From Anaerolinea sp. (lineage in GTDB: Bacteria; Chloroflexota; Anaerolineae; Anaerolineales; Anaerolineaceae), in NCBI GenBank assembly GCA_020725865.1, contig DYEC01000010.1, forward strand, positions 1 through 64,000: 64,000 bases of DNA, given 5' to 3'. The position numbers and the translations under genes were made by a program. Positions 49,318 to 59,093 of the stretch are shown one piece after another. Every line of letters begins with the position of its first letter. The first letter of the stretch is position 1. Under the pieces are notes generated by a model, which was not told the DNA's origin, ran no database searches, and saw only the letters and a list, made by a program, of their open reading frames with translations.

Positions 49318-50382
49318 TTACCCCCTCTCAACACTAGGTGTGGCCGTTTCTCTGCCGGAAGCCCCGCTCACACTGCTCGTTGAGGTCTCAACCCGAAAAA
49401 CATCTAAAATACGACGCACCAGATCATAAACAAGGTTCTGCCGGAAACCGGCTACCCAAGCCAACAAATATACAACAAGCGCAGAGTTTATGGCAGTTAC
49501 ATCTGAACCACCACCCGCCGTCAGGGTGAAAAAACCTGCCTGAATCACAATAAATATAAAAGCACCCAACGGAACACCTAAAATGGGATTGGTGTAGTAC
49601 CACAAAGCGTGTTGATGGTCAAAATCCTGCCGATCAGCAACATGGCGCCATAACACAAACAATGCACCAACAATCCCCCCCATGGCACCCCAAATCATTG
49701 AATTAATTAACTGAGCAACATTGACAGACATGACCATGTGGCTTATCAAAGATGCGCTTGGAGCTATATTAACAAAATAAAACATTGCCCCAAGAAAAAG
49801 CAACCACAAAACCTCATACGCCAAAATCCAAGGAGCGTATTTCCTGGAAGACTCCCGCATACGAGGCATGAAATCCAGACGATGCTCAACCTCCGCCAGC
49901 AACCTATCGGCTTCTTCAAAGTTTTCCTTACCAGCCAGCAAATAATTACGTGCCTGTTGGATAAGATTAAGGAGGTAAGCAGCCAATTCCACATTATTTA
50001 TTTCCCGGTTAATTCGACTTTGTGCTTCTTCGGTCCTCTGCCAGAACCGATCAATACGGGAGCGCAGAATCAGCCTATCTAGTATTTTTTCGTCCGCAGG
50101 CAATGCTGGTAAAGGTATTGCTCCCCACGGAGCGCCACCCTCCAACTCCTCCTCTAGGATCATTGGTTCATAAGCATGCATTGCTTCATCTCTTGCGACT
50201 TCACCCTCACCTCCTATCACTTCTCTGGCACCTAGAATCTCTCCACCTTCGCTTGCAACTGGCTCGGTTGGCACAACCGGTTGTTCAACCTCATCTGCAA
50301 CGGGTGTTTCTTCAATACTCTGTGCATCAACACCCGAGTCACCGGACTTTTCTTGCTCATCGAATGGTTGATACATTCCCAT
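49318..50382 (-). CDS. polytopic membrane protein with long acidic N-terminus
   Basis: The 354-residue protein starts at an ATG with GGAGG 7 nt upstream. The first 100 residues are rich in Glu, Val and Pro and probably disordered. About 105-185 is a charged helical segment (RFWQRTEEAQSRINREINNV), followed by four predicted membrane helices (about 190-325). A Ser/Thr tail (VETSTSSVSGASGRETATPS) ends the protein. I do not recognise the family. The disordered tails make it a plausible target of the Ser/Thr kinases, but this is only an inference. Confidence 0.7.
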   Translation of the reverse strand: MGMYQPFDEQEKSGDSGVDAQSIEETPVADEVEQPVVPTEPVASEGGEILGAREVIGGEGEVARDEAMHAYEPMILEEELEGGAPWGAIPLPALPADEKILDRLILRSRIDRFWQRTEEAQSRINREINNVELAAYLLNLIQQARNYLLAGKENFEEADRLLAEVEHRLDFMPRMRESSRKYAPWILAYEVLWLLFLGAMFYFVNIAPSASLISHMVMSVNVAQLINSMIWGAMGGIVGALFVLWRHVADRQDFDHQHALWYYTNPILGVPLGAFIFIVIQAGFFTLTAGGGSDVTAINSALVVYLLAWVAGFRQNLVYDLVRRILDVFRVETSTSSVSGASGRETATPSVERG

Positions 50383-54495: not shown

Positions 54496-55641
54496 ATGAC
54501 AACAGCTGAAATAATCGCGATCGGAACCGAATTGCTTTTGGGGGAAATTCAAGATACCAACACCTGCTACCTGGCGCGGCACTTAAGAGGTATTGGGATT
54601 GATTTGTATCGCTCTACGATCGTTGGAGATAACCCTAGCCGTATTGCTCAGGCTATTCAGGAATCTTTGGCGCGCGCCGATCTTATCATTACTACGGGCG
54701 GATTGGGTCCAACCATTGATGACCCCACCCGCCAGGCAGTTGCCCAAGCGGCAGGTGTATCCCTTGAGTTCCGCTCCGAGTTATGGGAGCAAATACAAAC
54801 CCGCTTTGCACGCTATGGGCGAAAAGCCACCGAAAATAACCGCCGCCAGGCTTACATCCCACAAGGTGCCATTGCTGTCGAAAATCCCATTGGTACCGCA
54901 CCAGCGTTTATTCTAGAAAAAGACCTGAAAACCATCATCAGCTTGCCGGGTGTACCAAGAGAACTAGAATACCTTTGGGAACAGCAGATTTTGCACTATC
55001 TCAAAAACCGCTATGACCTCCACGGTCTCATCAAAGTGCGCGTTATTCATCTTGCAGGTGTTGGCGAATCACAGGTGGACGAATGGATTGGCGATCTAGA
55101 AGCTCAAGATAACCCTACGATTGGCTTACTAGCACACCCTGGGCAAATTGACATTCGCATTGCAGCAAAAGCAGAGAGCGAAGAGCAAGCTGACAACCTG
55201 ATTGCTCTTGCTGAAGCAGTTGTGCGGGAAAAGTGTGGAGACCATATCTACGGTGCAAACGCGACGACGTTGGAACAGGTAGTCTTGCAAAAACTGACAG
55301 ATCGTCACCAGAGTCTCACAATCATCGAATGCGGGTTGTCAGGTGCTTTATGCACCCGTCTGACCGAAGTTCTTGCAACTGCCCCGGAAATTAAGATATT
55401 CTCACGGCAATGTGAAAATAATCTTGAATACAAGCAAATCATTGAAGCACGCCTGATATTTGAAACCGATATTATTTTCGGCGTATGTCTGCAAACCGAC
55501 AACGAAAAACTGGTGTTACATCTGAATTTGTTTTTGCCTGAAGAAGCCAAAGAGACCTCTCGCTTTTTTGGCGGACACCCCGCAAATGCTGTGCTTTGGT
55601 CGGTCAATATGGCACTGGATTACCTGCGAAGAAACCTTTAA
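54496..55641 (+). CDS. cinA: CinA-like protein with degenerate C-terminal domain
   Basis: Residues about 1-170 match the CinA N-terminal (MoCF/COG1058) domain: AEIIAIGTELLLGEIQDTNT, TTGGLGPTIDDPTRQAVA and SLPGVPRELEYLWEQQ. This part hydrolyses ADP-ribose in other CinAs. The following domain (about 180-245) is intact. The last part (about 265-381) should be the NMN deamidase domain with AESCTGG, but reads IIECGLSGALCTRLTEV, so the catalytic Ser/Thr motif is lost. Pyridine-nucleotide salvage via NMN deamidation is therefore doubtful. It lies between a cNMP-binding protein and the MtaD-CYTH gene. Confidence 0.83.
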   Translation: MTTAEIIAIGTELLLGEIQDTNTCYLARHLRGIGIDLYRSTIVGDNPSRIAQAIQESLARADLIITTGGLGPTIDDPTRQAVAQAAGVSLEFRSELWEQIQTRFARYGRKATENNRRQAYIPQGAIAVENPIGTAPAFILEKDLKTIISLPGVPRELEYLWEQQILHYLKNRYDLHGLIKVRVIHLAGVGESQVDEWIGDLEAQDNPTIGLLAHPGQIDIRIAAKAESEEQADNLIALAEAVVREKCGDHIYGANATTLEQVVLQKLTDRHQSLTIIECGLSGALCTRLTEVLATAPEIKIFSRQCENNLEYKQIIEARLIFETDIIFGVCLQTDNEKLVLHLNLFLPEEAKETSRFFGGHPANAVLWSVNMALDYLRRNL

Positions 55642-55663: not shown

Positions 55664-57637
55664 ATGCAAACTACCGAAGTGCTTTTTATCAATGCAATTG
55701 TCCTAACCATGGACGATAAGCTGACACAATATAAACCGGGCAGTGTAGCTGTCTCCAATGGAAATATTGTAGCCGTTGGGAAACAGGAAGATATCACATC
55801 ACAATTCGCTGCTGAAAAGATTGTAGATTGCAAAGGCAAATTGCTTATGCCTGGTTTGATTAACGGACATACCCACGCGCCGATGACCCTCCTGCGTGGT
55901 TTAGCAGACGACCTGCGTCTGGATGTATGGTTAATGGGTTACATGATGCCTGTAGAACGAAAATTTGTCTCGCCAGAGTTTGTCCGGCTTGGTACCCAGC
56001 TCGCTTGTGCGGAAATGATCCGTAGCGGCGTGACCACGTTTTGCGACATGTACTACTTTGAAGAGGAAGTGGCTAAAGCAACAGCAGAAGCCGGTATGCG
56101 CGCAGTCTGTGGCGAAACTGTACTAAAGTTTCCTACCCCGGATGCGTCTTATTTTGATGAATCGCTGGCATATACGCAAGATTACATAAAGCGTTGGAAA
56201 GATCACCCCCTTATCGTTCCCACTGTCGCCCCCCACGCACCCTACACCTGTACTGAGGAACTGCTCCAAAGCAGTGCCGCAATGGCTGTTGAACATGATG
56301 TTCCTCTAGTGATTCATCTTTCAGAAACCGCATTGGAAGTCGAAAACATGCGTAATCAGACCGGGATGCCGGTAATACCATATGTGAAGAAACAGAATCT
56401 TTTCAACGCGCGCGTGATTGCTGCCCACTGTGTCCACGTGGACGAGGGCGAAATCCGTACCTTAACTCACCATAATGCCGGGGTGATTCACAACCCATCC
56501 TCAAACCTTAAGCTGGCATCTGGCATTGCCCCTGTAAAACGCATGCTCGAGTTGGGGCTAAGCGTCGGTCTTGGGACAGACGGACCAGCCTCGAATAATG
56601 ACCTGGATATGTTTGAAGAGATGCGGCTGGCAGCATTCATAGCGAAAGGAATCAGCGGCGACCCAACCGCTCTCCCCGCACCGACTGCTGTACTGATGGC
56701 CACCCGCCTGGGCGCAAAAGCCCTTCATCTCGACAGAATAACCGGTTCTATCGAACCGGGCAAACGGGCTGATCTGATCCTGGTACATATTAACCCAATA
56801 CACAATTCCCCTCATTTCACTCGTGATCCTCACAGTATATATGCGCAAATCGTTTATGCCGCAAAGTCAACTGATGTAACTGATGTAATGATCAACGGGC
56901 AGTTTGTCATGCGAGACAAGGAATTATTAACTTTGGATGAAGAAGTCCTGACACGGGAAAGCCAGAGCTACGCGCGCAAGATAGACCTCTTTTTGATTGA
57001 ACGCGAACAATCTGTTCTTGCTAAACTGATTGAAATCGGCGGTGCCACGGAAGAAGAATCTTTCGAGGTGCAGGCTAAAGTGCCTATCAAAGATAATTCA
57101 GCCGTTCTCAGTGCGCTTGACAGACCTGAAATTGAAATCATCTACCAGCGGCACTACAAACAGTATGATACCTACTTTGGCTTCGAGGATCCAAAACAGG
57201 GACATATCCGCTTTAGAGAAGATCATCTGGTTAGTTCGGCGGGGCAGGTGACCAATGTAAGAACCCGCCTGACACACATTGGCGAAACCAGCGAGGACCA
57301 TTTTCCTCAACAAGTGATTTTATCGCGCAGTCGCTTTATTGCACCGGCTGCACAAAGCCTGCGCTTCTACCGGGAATATTTCAAACCTGCCTCAGAACGA
57401 GAAGTTGAAAAGGATCGTTTACGTTTCTTGATCCGATATAAAAATACCGAGTTCTATGTTAACATTGACACAATGCTTAAACCTCCACTTGGTAACTTCT
57501 TAGAAGTCAAAAGCCGTACCTGGAGTCGGAAAGACGCTGAACACAAGGCGCGTCTTATTCCTGAGCTGATTGAATGCCTTGGTGTGTCTTCAGCAGAAAC
57601 AATTTCAAAAGATTATATTGAGTTAATCCATGACTGA
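55664..57637 (+). CDS. fusion: MtaD-type amidohydrolase with C-terminal CYTH-like domain
   Basis: Residues about 1-445 form a metal-dependent amidohydrolase of the MTA/SAH deaminase class: His69 and His71 (GHTHAPMTLLRG), PHAPYTC, HLSETA, AHCVHVDEGE and GTDGPASNNDLDMF. From residue 467 to 657 a CYTH-like fold follows. It begins FEVQAKV, where the ExExK motif reads E468-V-Q-A-K472 with Gln for the second Glu. It contains HIRFRED, RLRFLIRYK and FLEVKSRTWSRKDAEHK. CYTH enzymes act on triphosphates. I know of no established role for the fusion. It overlaps glgA by 8 bp. Confidence 0.8.
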   Translation: MQTTEVLFINAIVLTMDDKLTQYKPGSVAVSNGNIVAVGKQEDITSQFAAEKIVDCKGKLLMPGLINGHTHAPMTLLRGLADDLRLDVWLMGYMMPVERKFVSPEFVRLGTQLACAEMIRSGVTTFCDMYYFEEEVAKATAEAGMRAVCGETVLKFPTPDASYFDESLAYTQDYIKRWKDHPLIVPTVAPHAPYTCTEELLQSSAAMAVEHDVPLVIHLSETALEVENMRNQTGMPVIPYVKKQNLFNARVIAAHCVHVDEGEIRTLTHHNAGVIHNPSSNLKLASGIAPVKRMLELGLSVGLGTDGPASNNDLDMFEEMRLAAFIAKGISGDPTALPAPTAVLMATRLGAKALHLDRITGSIEPGKRADLILVHINPIHNSPHFTRDPHSIYAQIVYAAKSTDVTDVMINGQFVMRDKELLTLDEEVLTRESQSYARKIDLFLIEREQSVLAKLIEIGGATEEESFEVQAKVPIKDNSAVLSALDRPEIEIIYQRHYKQYDTYFGFEDPKQGHIRFREDHLVSSAGQVTNVRTRLTHIGETSEDHFPQQVILSRSRFIAPAAQSLRFYREYFKPASEREVEKDRLRFLIRYKNTEFYVNIDTMLKPPLGNFLEVKSRTWSRKDAEHKARLIPELIECLGVSSAETISKDYIELIHD

Positions 57638-59093
57638 AGAACTGCGTGTTTTATTCCTAATTTCTGAAATTGACCCCTTCATAAAAATCGGGGGGTTGGG
57701 TGATGTAGGCGGTTCTTTACCACGGGCACTAGCTTCTCTCTCCCCAGAAAACACCAATAGACATAGAATAGACATTCGCATATGCGTACCGCTTCATGCA
57801 CCAATTCGCCACAAGCTACCAACCGAAAAAATAGTTGCGGAATTTCCTCTTGAAAACAAGTATGGAAAGGTTTTTGCGACCGCCTTCGAGGCTGAACTAA
57901 ATGGTATTGTGACCTATTTGATTGACGGAGAACCCGTCAGGCAGGCACCAAAAGTTTACAACGAAGACGAGATATTAGACGGAGAAAAGTATGTCTTTTA
58001 CTCTCTGGCATCACTGGAACTGATGCGTTTTTTGAATTGGAAACCTCACATTGTTCACTGTCACGACTGGCACACTGCACCAGCAATTTACCAGCTCTCC
58101 CGCAACCGAGTTAACGATGTCTTTTTCTCAGACACGCGTTCCATCTTAACAATCCATAACCTACCATTCATGGGAAATGGTGCCAGTCAGGCTATGACTG
58201 ATTATGGTCTTCCGCCAACCAGCAGCACCGCCTTGCCAGAGTGGGCACGTCATCTCCCTCTGCCTCTGGGATTGCTGACTGCTGATTGGATTACCACCGT
58301 CTCGCCAACCTACGCAACAGAAATCCTTACACCTGAATTTGGCTGCGGCTTAGAGGAATTCCTTGCCTCAAGACGATTAACAATTTCTGGCATTCTCAAC
58401 GGTTTAGACATTGCCAGCTGGGATCCCCAAAAAGACAAAGCCCTAATTTCACCCTTCAGCGTTGATTCTGTCCACAAACGAACTATAAACAAGCAGGCTC
58501 TTCTGGAAGAATTCTCACTTAAAAACGACCTGGACATTCCGTTGCTTGCCTTTATTGGGCGAATGGATGCTCAAAAAGGAGTGGATATATTGCTGGAAGG
58601 TTTAGAGATGATTGCTGATACGAATTGGCTGGCGATTCTATTAGGAACTGGGAACGCACAGTTGGAACGCGCAACTATCGAAATGCAGCAAAAATATCCC
58701 AACCATGTGCGTGCTGCGATTCGCTTTGATCCCAAGCTGTCCCGAATGCTTTATGGTGGTGCAGACATGCTCCTGATCCCTTCTCGCTACGAACCCTGCG
58801 GTATGGTACAAATGATCGCCATGAGATATGGATGTATTCCGATTGCTCATGCAACCGGCGGATTGAAAGATACCATCCGAAATGACCCGGCTGACCAGAA
58901 AACCGGTTTTTTGTTTCCCAAAAACACGGCCGAAGAATTGACTCAATCTCTAAAGCAGGCTTTCTCTTACTATAGAAATCAAAATCTCTGGCGCACAATT
59001 CAACAAAACGCCATGCGCCAGGATTTCTCTTGGGAACGTTCTGCGAATGAATACGCCAAGCTTTACCTAAGGCTCAAGGAGAACACAGAATGA
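57630..59093 (+). CDS. glgA: glycogen synthase (GT5)
   Basis: GlgA extends alpha-1,4-glucan from ADP-glucose. The ADP-glucose binding motif appears as FIKIGGLGDVGGSLPRAL near residue 18. The C-terminal Rossmann half has FIGRMDAQKGVDILLEGL and PSRYEPCGMVQMIAMRYGCI with the catalytic Glu. HIVHCHDWHTAPAIY is the typical loop. The length of 487 residues is usual. The start overlaps the preceding MtaD-CYTH gene by 8 bp and the end overlaps glgC by 4 bp (ATGA), so these genes form an operon. Confidence 0.93.
   Translation: MTEELRVLFLISEIDPFIKIGGLGDVGGSLPRALASLSPENTNRHRIDIRICVPLHAPIRHKLPTEKIVAEFPLENKYGKVFATAFEAELNGIVTYLIDGEPVRQAPKVYNEDEILDGEKYVFYSLASLELMRFLNWKPHIVHCHDWHTAPAIYQLSRNRVNDVFFSDTRSILTIHNLPFMGNGASQAMTDYGLPPTSSTALPEWARHLPLPLGLLTADWITTVSPTYATEILTPEFGCGLEEFLASRRLTISGILNGLDIASWDPQKDKALISPFSVDSVHKRTINKQALLEEFSLKNDLDIPLLAFIGRMDAQKGVDILLEGLEMIADTNWLAILLGTGNAQLERATIEMQQKYPNHVRAAIRFDPKLSRMLYGGADMLLIPSRYEPCGMVQMIAMRYGCIPIAHATGGLKDTIRNDPADQKTGFLFPKNTAEELTQSLKQAFSYYRNQNLWRTIQQNAMRQDFSWERSANEYAKLYLRLKENTE

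Follow-up and report, generated by a model that had tools for sequence, protein, structure and literature searches.

A gene of Anaerolinea sp. encodes a protein in which a predicted deaminase of adenine nucleosides is joined to a CYTH/triphosphate-tunnel (TTM) domain, and two residues of this tunnel that appear to fall on ligands of the second metal site are replaced in every readable member of the family. The gene lies in a stretch of 64,000 nucleotides (hereafter, the window), and its features are collected in Table 1. The parts of the protein are known; the combination of a deaminase with a tunnel and the paired replacement at metal site 2 are new. As a tentative reading, held with somewhat less than even confidence, we propose a two-domain enzyme in which an adenine-nucleoside deaminase would be regulated by a tunnel without site 2 that grips a nucleotide or polyphosphate and does not hydrolyse it efficiently.

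Table 1. Features of the fusion gene and its neighbours, in window positions
Feature	Position	Strand	Remarks
Small cNMP-binding-domain protein, 167 aa	53969..54472	+	Head of the same gene string
CinA-like gene (MoCF and CinA_KH domains)	54496..55641	+	22 bp upstream of the fusion; wider-spread neighbour
Whole fusion gene	55664..57637	+	657 aa plus stop, ATG start, no internal stop; full-length relatives in 57/61 near genomes
Amidohydrolase domain, residues 1-440	55664..56983	+	Adenosine/MTA-deaminase-like by profiles and by VIA Z 57-58 to 4dzh, 4dyk, 4f0r and 4gbd
HxH, H69 and H71	55868..55876	+	Presumed metal ligands (family knowledge); invariant 39/39
H218 and E221	56315..56326	+	Presumed metal ligand and acid/base (family knowledge); invariant 39/39
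H255	56426..56428	+	Presumed catalytic His (family knowledge); invariant 39/39
D306	56579..56581	+	Presumed metal ligand (family knowledge); invariant 39/39
Two linker helices, residues 426-459	56939..57040	+	Secondary structure of the AlphaFold2 model
CYTH/TTM tunnel domain, residues 462-657	57047..57634	+	Eight strands and a C-terminal helix in the predicted model
ExQxK (E468, Q470, K472), altered ExExK	57065..57079	+	102/102 distinct domains; aligns with MEIEAK of canonical CYTH
RxR (R516, R518)	57209..57217	+	Basic tunnel residues; 102/102
KxRxR (K583, R585, R587)	57410..57424	+	Basic tunnel residues; 101/101 readable
NxD (N600, D602)	57461..57469	+	101/101 readable
Strand-8 ExK (E614, K616)	57503..57511	+	In the profile register, Glu retained at site 1 and Lys in place of the site-2 Glu; 101/101 readable
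glgA	57630..59093	+	Overlaps the fusion by 8 bp; adjacency conserved only in Anaerolineaceae

The genome that holds the window (G000) comprises 3.12 Mb in 26 contigs and is 99% complete and 4% contaminated. Searched with the fusion protein, it gives 15 matches, including the fusion itself. The AlphaFold2 model of the full-length protein has a mean pLDDT of 90.7 and a pTM of 0.85, with the amidohydrolase part followed by the tunnel. The same two-domain gene recurs in Anaerolineae and Chloroflexia, for instance in Roseiflexus, and the fusion therefore goes beyond chance.

The N-terminal half is matched by Amidohydro_1 in Pfam (1e-71). In NCBIfam, its best match is PRK09045 (TRZ/ATZ hydrolase) with 464 bits, under the 540-bit cut-off, and none among the 25 listed of the 71 matching families reaches its cut-off. 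In the structure comparison, residues 1-440 of the model superpose on 4dzh, 4dyk, 4f0r and 4gbd over about 435 residues at 1.3-1.6 A (VIA Z 57-58). All four are bacterial adenosine/MTA deaminases; TM0936 (1p1m) scores a VIA Z of 51.5. The amidohydrolase fold carries the HxH, His, Glu, His and Asp set, and all six positions (H69, H71, H218, E221, H255 and D306) are invariant in the 39 fusions aligned after L049 (frame break) and L069 (cut) had been dropped from 40 loci (alignment A1), which bears out the deaminase-like character that the original prediction had assigned to this half. From knowledge of the family, we take H69, H71, H218 and D306 to be metal ligands, E221 to be the acid/base and H255 the catalytic His. 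The N-terminal half is best explained as a metal-dependent deaminase of adenine nucleosides, as predicted from sequence and model. It shares its fold (VIA Z 51-58) and its metal and catalytic residues with the MTA/SAH/adenosine deaminases 4f0r, 4dyk, 4dzh and TM0936. However, the solved members of that group are single-domain proteins, whereas the fusion protein carries an appended tunnel domain, and the fused deaminases form a clade of their own apart from the unfused ones. DadD of M. jannaschii belongs to the same deaminase group by name only, as given in the available excerpts of its paper (PMC10978960).

Structure searches with the full-length model returned VIA and Foldseek lists filled by amidohydrolases, which were uninformative on the tunnel, and the C-terminal domain was therefore folded alone. 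The alignment of 28 sequences used for this model (A2) consisted of the window and 27 of the 40 loci, with near-copies thinned. A tunnel fold is predicted for the last 190 residues (pLDDT 86.5, pTM 0.82), the stretch on whose structure the original prediction had staked its CYTH assignment, and CYTH proteins are the best PDB matches of the domain model. Foldseek retrieved class IV adenylyl cyclase, SaTTM, AtTTM1, PH1819 and other CYTH proteins at 9e-9 to 1e-6, with the class IV adenylyl cyclase 2fjt as the top match. VIA Z values to CYTH/TTM structures range from 11 to 18, including 17.9 for PH1819 (2een), 16.3 for SaTTM (7ns9), 16.2 for class IV cyclase (3n0z) and 13.1 for YgiF (5a60). Mediator subunit structures were also among the VIA matches, up to Z 13.4.

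Sequence searches recovered this kinship unevenly. The window's own C-terminal half has no match in Pfam, and in NCBIfam it has a weak match to cyaB (25 bits; cut-off 57.95). When the window and 27 relatives were scanned at E up to 1, PF01928 CYTH was found in 13 of the 28 domains (best 7.8e-8) and cyaB in 15. A search of PDB sequences with the C-terminal domain returned no CYTH protein and one chance match, AP-2. The suggestion that a CYTH profile and its partner might be traced in other genomes holds for the fusion, which recurs. In whole-genome scans, the Pfam CYTH cut-off is passed by 16 of the 62 fusion genes and not by the window protein. The CYTH kinship of the domain is thus visible by fold and in relatives, not by PDB sequence search, and we are confident, on the strength of the predicted model, that the C-terminal half adopts the CYTH/TTM tunnel fold.

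The motifs of this domain were counted over 120 domain-bearing frames, one per locus, of which 102 are distinct; some loci represent the same contig in two collections. For the later motifs 101 domains are readable, as L069 ends at a contig end. The Gln that the original prediction had noticed as the second acid of ExExK is present in all 102 domains. When the domain profile is aligned with YgiF and with canonical CYTH proteins from this phylum, FEVQAK is matched to MEIEAK, and LEVK to the final two Glu of CELELE. In alignments to two CyaB-like proteins (L121 and L129), FLEVK pairs with FMELE. These two strand-8 pairings equate E614 with the first Glu of the strand-8 ExE and K616 with the second. 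According to excerpts of PMC4641920, metal 1 of YgiF is bound by E160, and metal 2, which activates the attacking water, by E4, E6 and E162. The profile register, which rests on weak sequence profiles (global hhalign with E 2e-6 and a probability of 78%; hmmsearch with 11-12 bits), places Q470 at YgiF E6, K616 at E162 and E614 at E160. This register suggests that the equivalents of E4 and E160 are kept, that E6 is replaced by Gln and E162 by Lys, and that site 2, with two of its three ligands replaced, is predicted to be lost. The coupled exchange of Glu for Lys on strand 8, which the original prediction had missed, would turn a single odd residue into the loss of a whole metal site.

Compared with CYTH/TTM proteins (PF01928; SaTTM, PH1819, YgiF and AtTTM3), the fusion domain has the same eight-stranded tunnel, the first Glu and the Lys of ExExK, the RxR and KxRxR motifs and the site-1 Glu on strand 8. 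It differs in having ExQxK and a strand-8 ExK in place of ExExK and ExE. In excerpts of the SaTTM paper, HFxxxxExExK marks cyclases, WxRxR marks ThTPase and the strand-8 ExE marks triphosphatases; ThTPase uses the second strand-8 Glu for metal 2, and class IV cyclases have Ala at this position (PMC8233210). The triphosphatase hallmarks were not found in the fusion domains (ExExK in 0 of 102, strand-8 ExE in 0 of the 101 readable), and neither H462 nor F463 of the cyclase HF motif occurs in any of the 102. At the site of the ThTPase motif the window reads HIRFR, with Trp in 4 and Arg in 66 of the 102 domains. WxRxR is thus not found in the window and is rare in the family, and the second strand-8 Glu of ThTPase is replaced by Lys in 101 of 101. 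As a family, the fusion domain follows none of the three known functional-class motifs, yet its own pattern is fixed over the phylum. A selected function is argued by this replacement, which is fixed and non-decaying over a phylum.

Two sets of variants were observed alongside these counts. In L031, L002, L077 and L051, the Trp before RxR, the published ThTPase signature, occurs on the altered ExQxK/ExK background. Additionally, L121 (1489-2025) and L129 (1489-2001) encode CYTH-family proteins in which NxExK replaces ExExK, with the Pfam CYTH match checked for L121. Of the free-standing proteins among the CYTH loci found, these two come closest to the fusion domain by profile.

The domain is present in 62 of the 301 genomes drawn from Chloroflexota, with one true copy each; a second match in G293, at 20 bits and with stops inside, is chance-like. 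The near genomes without a full-length relative are G001, G017, G023 and G034. In a scan with exact peptide patterns from one protein, the named relatives of the domain belong to Anaerolineaceae and other Chloroflexota. In 117 of the 120 cases the frame spans at least 600 aa; of the other three, two run into contig ends and one has a frame break. No free-standing C-terminal domain was found in the genomes searched; in contrast to other CYTH/TTM domains, this type was found there only fused to the deaminase. A tree built from 39 fused and 20 unfused deaminases places all the fused proteins on one side of a single branch with support 100/99, the unfused rows being a hand-picked top set of relatives, several with long branches. 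The fusion is old and forms one clade, within which the domains fall to about 41% identity to that of the window. L047, on a contig titled Calditrichia, groups with the window protein and L031 in the tree (93/96), and a mis-binned contig is probably likelier there than transfer. In L049 (4689-6654), from a MAG, the fusion gene is broken into two frames close to where the two domains meet, which may be an assembly error.

In the window, the fusion gene is part of a tight same-strand string encoding the cNMP-binding protein, the CinA-like protein, the fusion, GlgA, GlgC and MalQ. The original prediction was correct on the 8-bp overlap with glgA, which starts at 57630 where the fusion ends at 57637. 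The link to glycogen synthesis that it drew is supported in the window's family, with glgA adjoining the fusion in 24 of 25 loci, and is not borne out outside it, with none in the 5 loci of other families of the order (1.5-kb flanks). In two synteny sets, the count was 9 of 40 loci in the first and 0 of 20 in the second, which comes mostly from more distant genomes; several of these 60 loci end early at contig ends. A glycogen partner as the general function was rejected, as the adjacency of glgA is local to Anaerolineaceae. CinA stands beside the fusion in 22 of the 60 loci. A coaE-like (dephospho-CoA kinase) gene does so in 12, a Chloroflexia group whose cluster was typed from the representative L148, and it lies on the same strand and within 21 bases of the fusion in the 10 loci measured. 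The loci with this neighbour are L062, L063, L064, L066, L067, L132, L138, L141, L142, L143, L145 and L148. No universal neighbour was found across the loci compared; what lies beside the fusion varies with the lineage and points to no particular ligand.

Other observations concern the surrounding genes. The cNMP-binding protein, which has little beyond that domain, was found beside CinA in 7 of the 25 loci of the family, examined with short flanks, and it heads a string that includes a protein with a cyclase-superfamily fold. The last ~125 residues of the CinA-like protein are without any Pfam match at E 0.01. CinA proteins usually carry an amidase domain in this part. Furthermore, a 354-aa protein encoded at 49318-50382 on the minus strand has an acidic N-terminal and a hydrophobic C-terminal part and no Pfam match at E 0.01.

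Other salvage genes were used to narrow down the nucleoside. AhcY (SAH hydrolase) is encoded in all 62 fusion genomes, MTAP is above cut-off in 57 and canonical adenosine deaminase (ADA) is present in 53, while an MTA/SAH nucleosidase is above cut-off in only 4. The nucleosidase count alone would favour a role in MTA removal, but the MTAP count speaks against it. The MtaD-type label of the original prediction therefore keeps its deaminase family fold and is weakened in its MTA substrate by the AhcY, MTAP and ADA counts. In AhcY, HxTxE is the SAH-preferring and HxExK the SIH-preferring motif (excerpts of PMC10978960). Of 39 genomes searched, 30 could be read for this motif, and HxTxE was found in 23/23 fusion genomes (of the 62) and 7/7 non-fusion genomes. 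SAM recycling by DadD-SIHH (SAH deamination, then SIH hydrolase) finds no support in these AhcY proteins, which have HxTxE and not HxExK. Since other genes mostly take care of MTA, SAH and adenosine, 5'-deoxyadenosine is left as a candidate. By elimination only, our best guess for the physiological substrate is 5'-deoxyadenosine formed by radical-SAM enzymes, with the caveat that redundant routes are common.

In the regulated deaminase that we tentatively favour, the tunnel would hold metal-bound ATP, inorganic triphosphate or short polyphosphate through the basic residues K472, R516, R518, K583, R585 and R587 and through E614 at site 1. Without site 2, it would activate the attacking water poorly, and hydrolysis would not be efficient. 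The linker helices (residues 426-459) may then relay to the deaminase whether the tunnel is occupied or empty, signalling the energy or phosphate state, and the deaminase would remove an adenine nucleoside, with 5'-deoxyadenosine as the guessed one. Vtc4p, described with site 1 only in excerpts of PMC4641920, counts against this reading: it is a polyphosphate polymerase, and a lost motif need not mean lost catalysis. In a wider form, the tunnel would be a sensor or a VTC-like phosphotransfer site for ATP or polyphosphate that directly gates or feeds the nucleoside deaminase, a proposal that we regard as possible and would not yet lean on.

It is unlikely, if still a serious contender, that the tunnel has remained a hydrolase of triphosphate, pyrophosphate or nucleotide, working with one metal or with the help of Lys, and that the protein has two housekeeping activities, one removing an adenine nucleoside and the other a phosphate chain. 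SAM- and cobalamin-linked reactions give both triphosphate and adenine nucleosides, which would suit such an enzyme. All the basic residues are retained, together with E468, D602 and E614. Motif loss is also not proof of lost catalysis, as AtTTM1 and AtTTM2 use pyrophosphate without the signature motifs (excerpts of PMC8233210). However, two of the three site-2 ligands are missing in every readable member, and activity is impaired by Asp or Ala at E2 and E4 of AtTTM3 and by Ala at E6 of YgiF (excerpts of PMC4641920). A CYTH match outside the fusion occurs in 56 of the 62 fusion genomes, where another protein can thus supply the ordinary triphosphatase activity. This redundancy argument fails in the window genome, one of the six without such a match, where no other Pfam CYTH match was found at E 0.001; this point counts for the hydrolase.

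It is distinctly unlikely that the tunnel is an inactive structural remnant whose sole role is to stabilise the deaminase or make it dimerise. The predicted loss of site 2 would fit such a remnant, and the structural role of Mediator subunits with the TTM fold suggests that the fold can serve structure alone. Against this, the charged tunnel residues, of little use to a scaffold, are invariant in 102 domains down to about 41% identity.

A VTC-like phosphotransferase, in which site 1 would hold ATP and the Lys at the site-2 Glu would steer a phosphate acceptor, appears quite improbable. The likeness to VTC (PF09359, Vtc4p), which has the TTM fold by the literature, lies in the metal site: VTC domains, too, show ExK towards the end of the fold (15 of 15 proteins read from 16 loci, the broken match L196 being dropped), and site 1 without site 2, as described for Vtc4p, is predicted for the fusion domain. 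In excerpts of PMC4641920, basic residues of Vtc4p replace the acidic patch, including the position of AtTTM3 E171. The profile alignment of canonical CYTH to VTC sets the VTC Glu two residues later, at the last Glu of ELELE, and the VTC register therefore rests on that paper. The fusion domain has no profile similarity to the VTC set (hhalign probability 2% over 12 columns), whereas canonical CYTH aligns with 95% over 183 columns. Moreover, its N-terminal motif is ExQxK, compared with mostly RxD/ExK in VTC, and neither a membrane part nor an acceptor partner was seen. Membership in VTC was rejected for lack of profile kinship to PF09359, despite the ExK in both, whose VTC register is uncertain by two residues; the parallel concerns the site and does not extend to the family.

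That the tunnel is a class IV adenylyl cyclase acting together with the upstream cNMP-binding protein is very improbable: CyaB (TIGR00318) and 2fjt provide the best weak profile match and the best Foldseek match, the cNMP-binding protein heads the gene string and the second strand-8 Glu is missing from class IV cyclases as well (excerpts of PMC8233210), but the cyclase-only HF motif (HFxxxxExExK) is absent from 102 domains, ExExK contains Gln, strand 8 has Lys where the cyclases of that source have Ala, and the cNMP-binding protein accompanies CinA in so few of the family loci, as seen on short flanks.

The joining of CYTH to a nucleotide or phosphate enzyme has parallels in AtTTM1 (7z67) and in CYTH fusions with HD, exopolyphosphatase, nucleotidyl kinase and CHAD domains (excerpts of PMC8233210). 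The available part of that source names no deaminase or amidohydrolase among the fusion partners, and it describes the physiological role of CYTH proteins as largely open. Among the open-access papers searched, we found none joining a CYTH domain with an amidohydrolase, a deaminase fusion or a pseudoenzyme; domain databases may already list the fusion architecture, since part of the fusion genes pass the Pfam CYTH cut-off. The fusion domain represents a natural experiment on the function of a TTM tunnel from which metal site 2 is predicted to be lost. Because the tethered deaminase is easy to assay, its control by a ligand of the tunnel is directly testable. If the tunnel is a sensor, the CYTH fold would gain a regulatory role, and nucleoside salvage would be linked to the phosphate or energy state. 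If the sensor or phosphotransfer reading is true, the family would form a new functional class of CYTH proteins, which in Chloroflexota would tie the clearance of by-products of SAM and radical-SAM reactions to phosphate or energy status.
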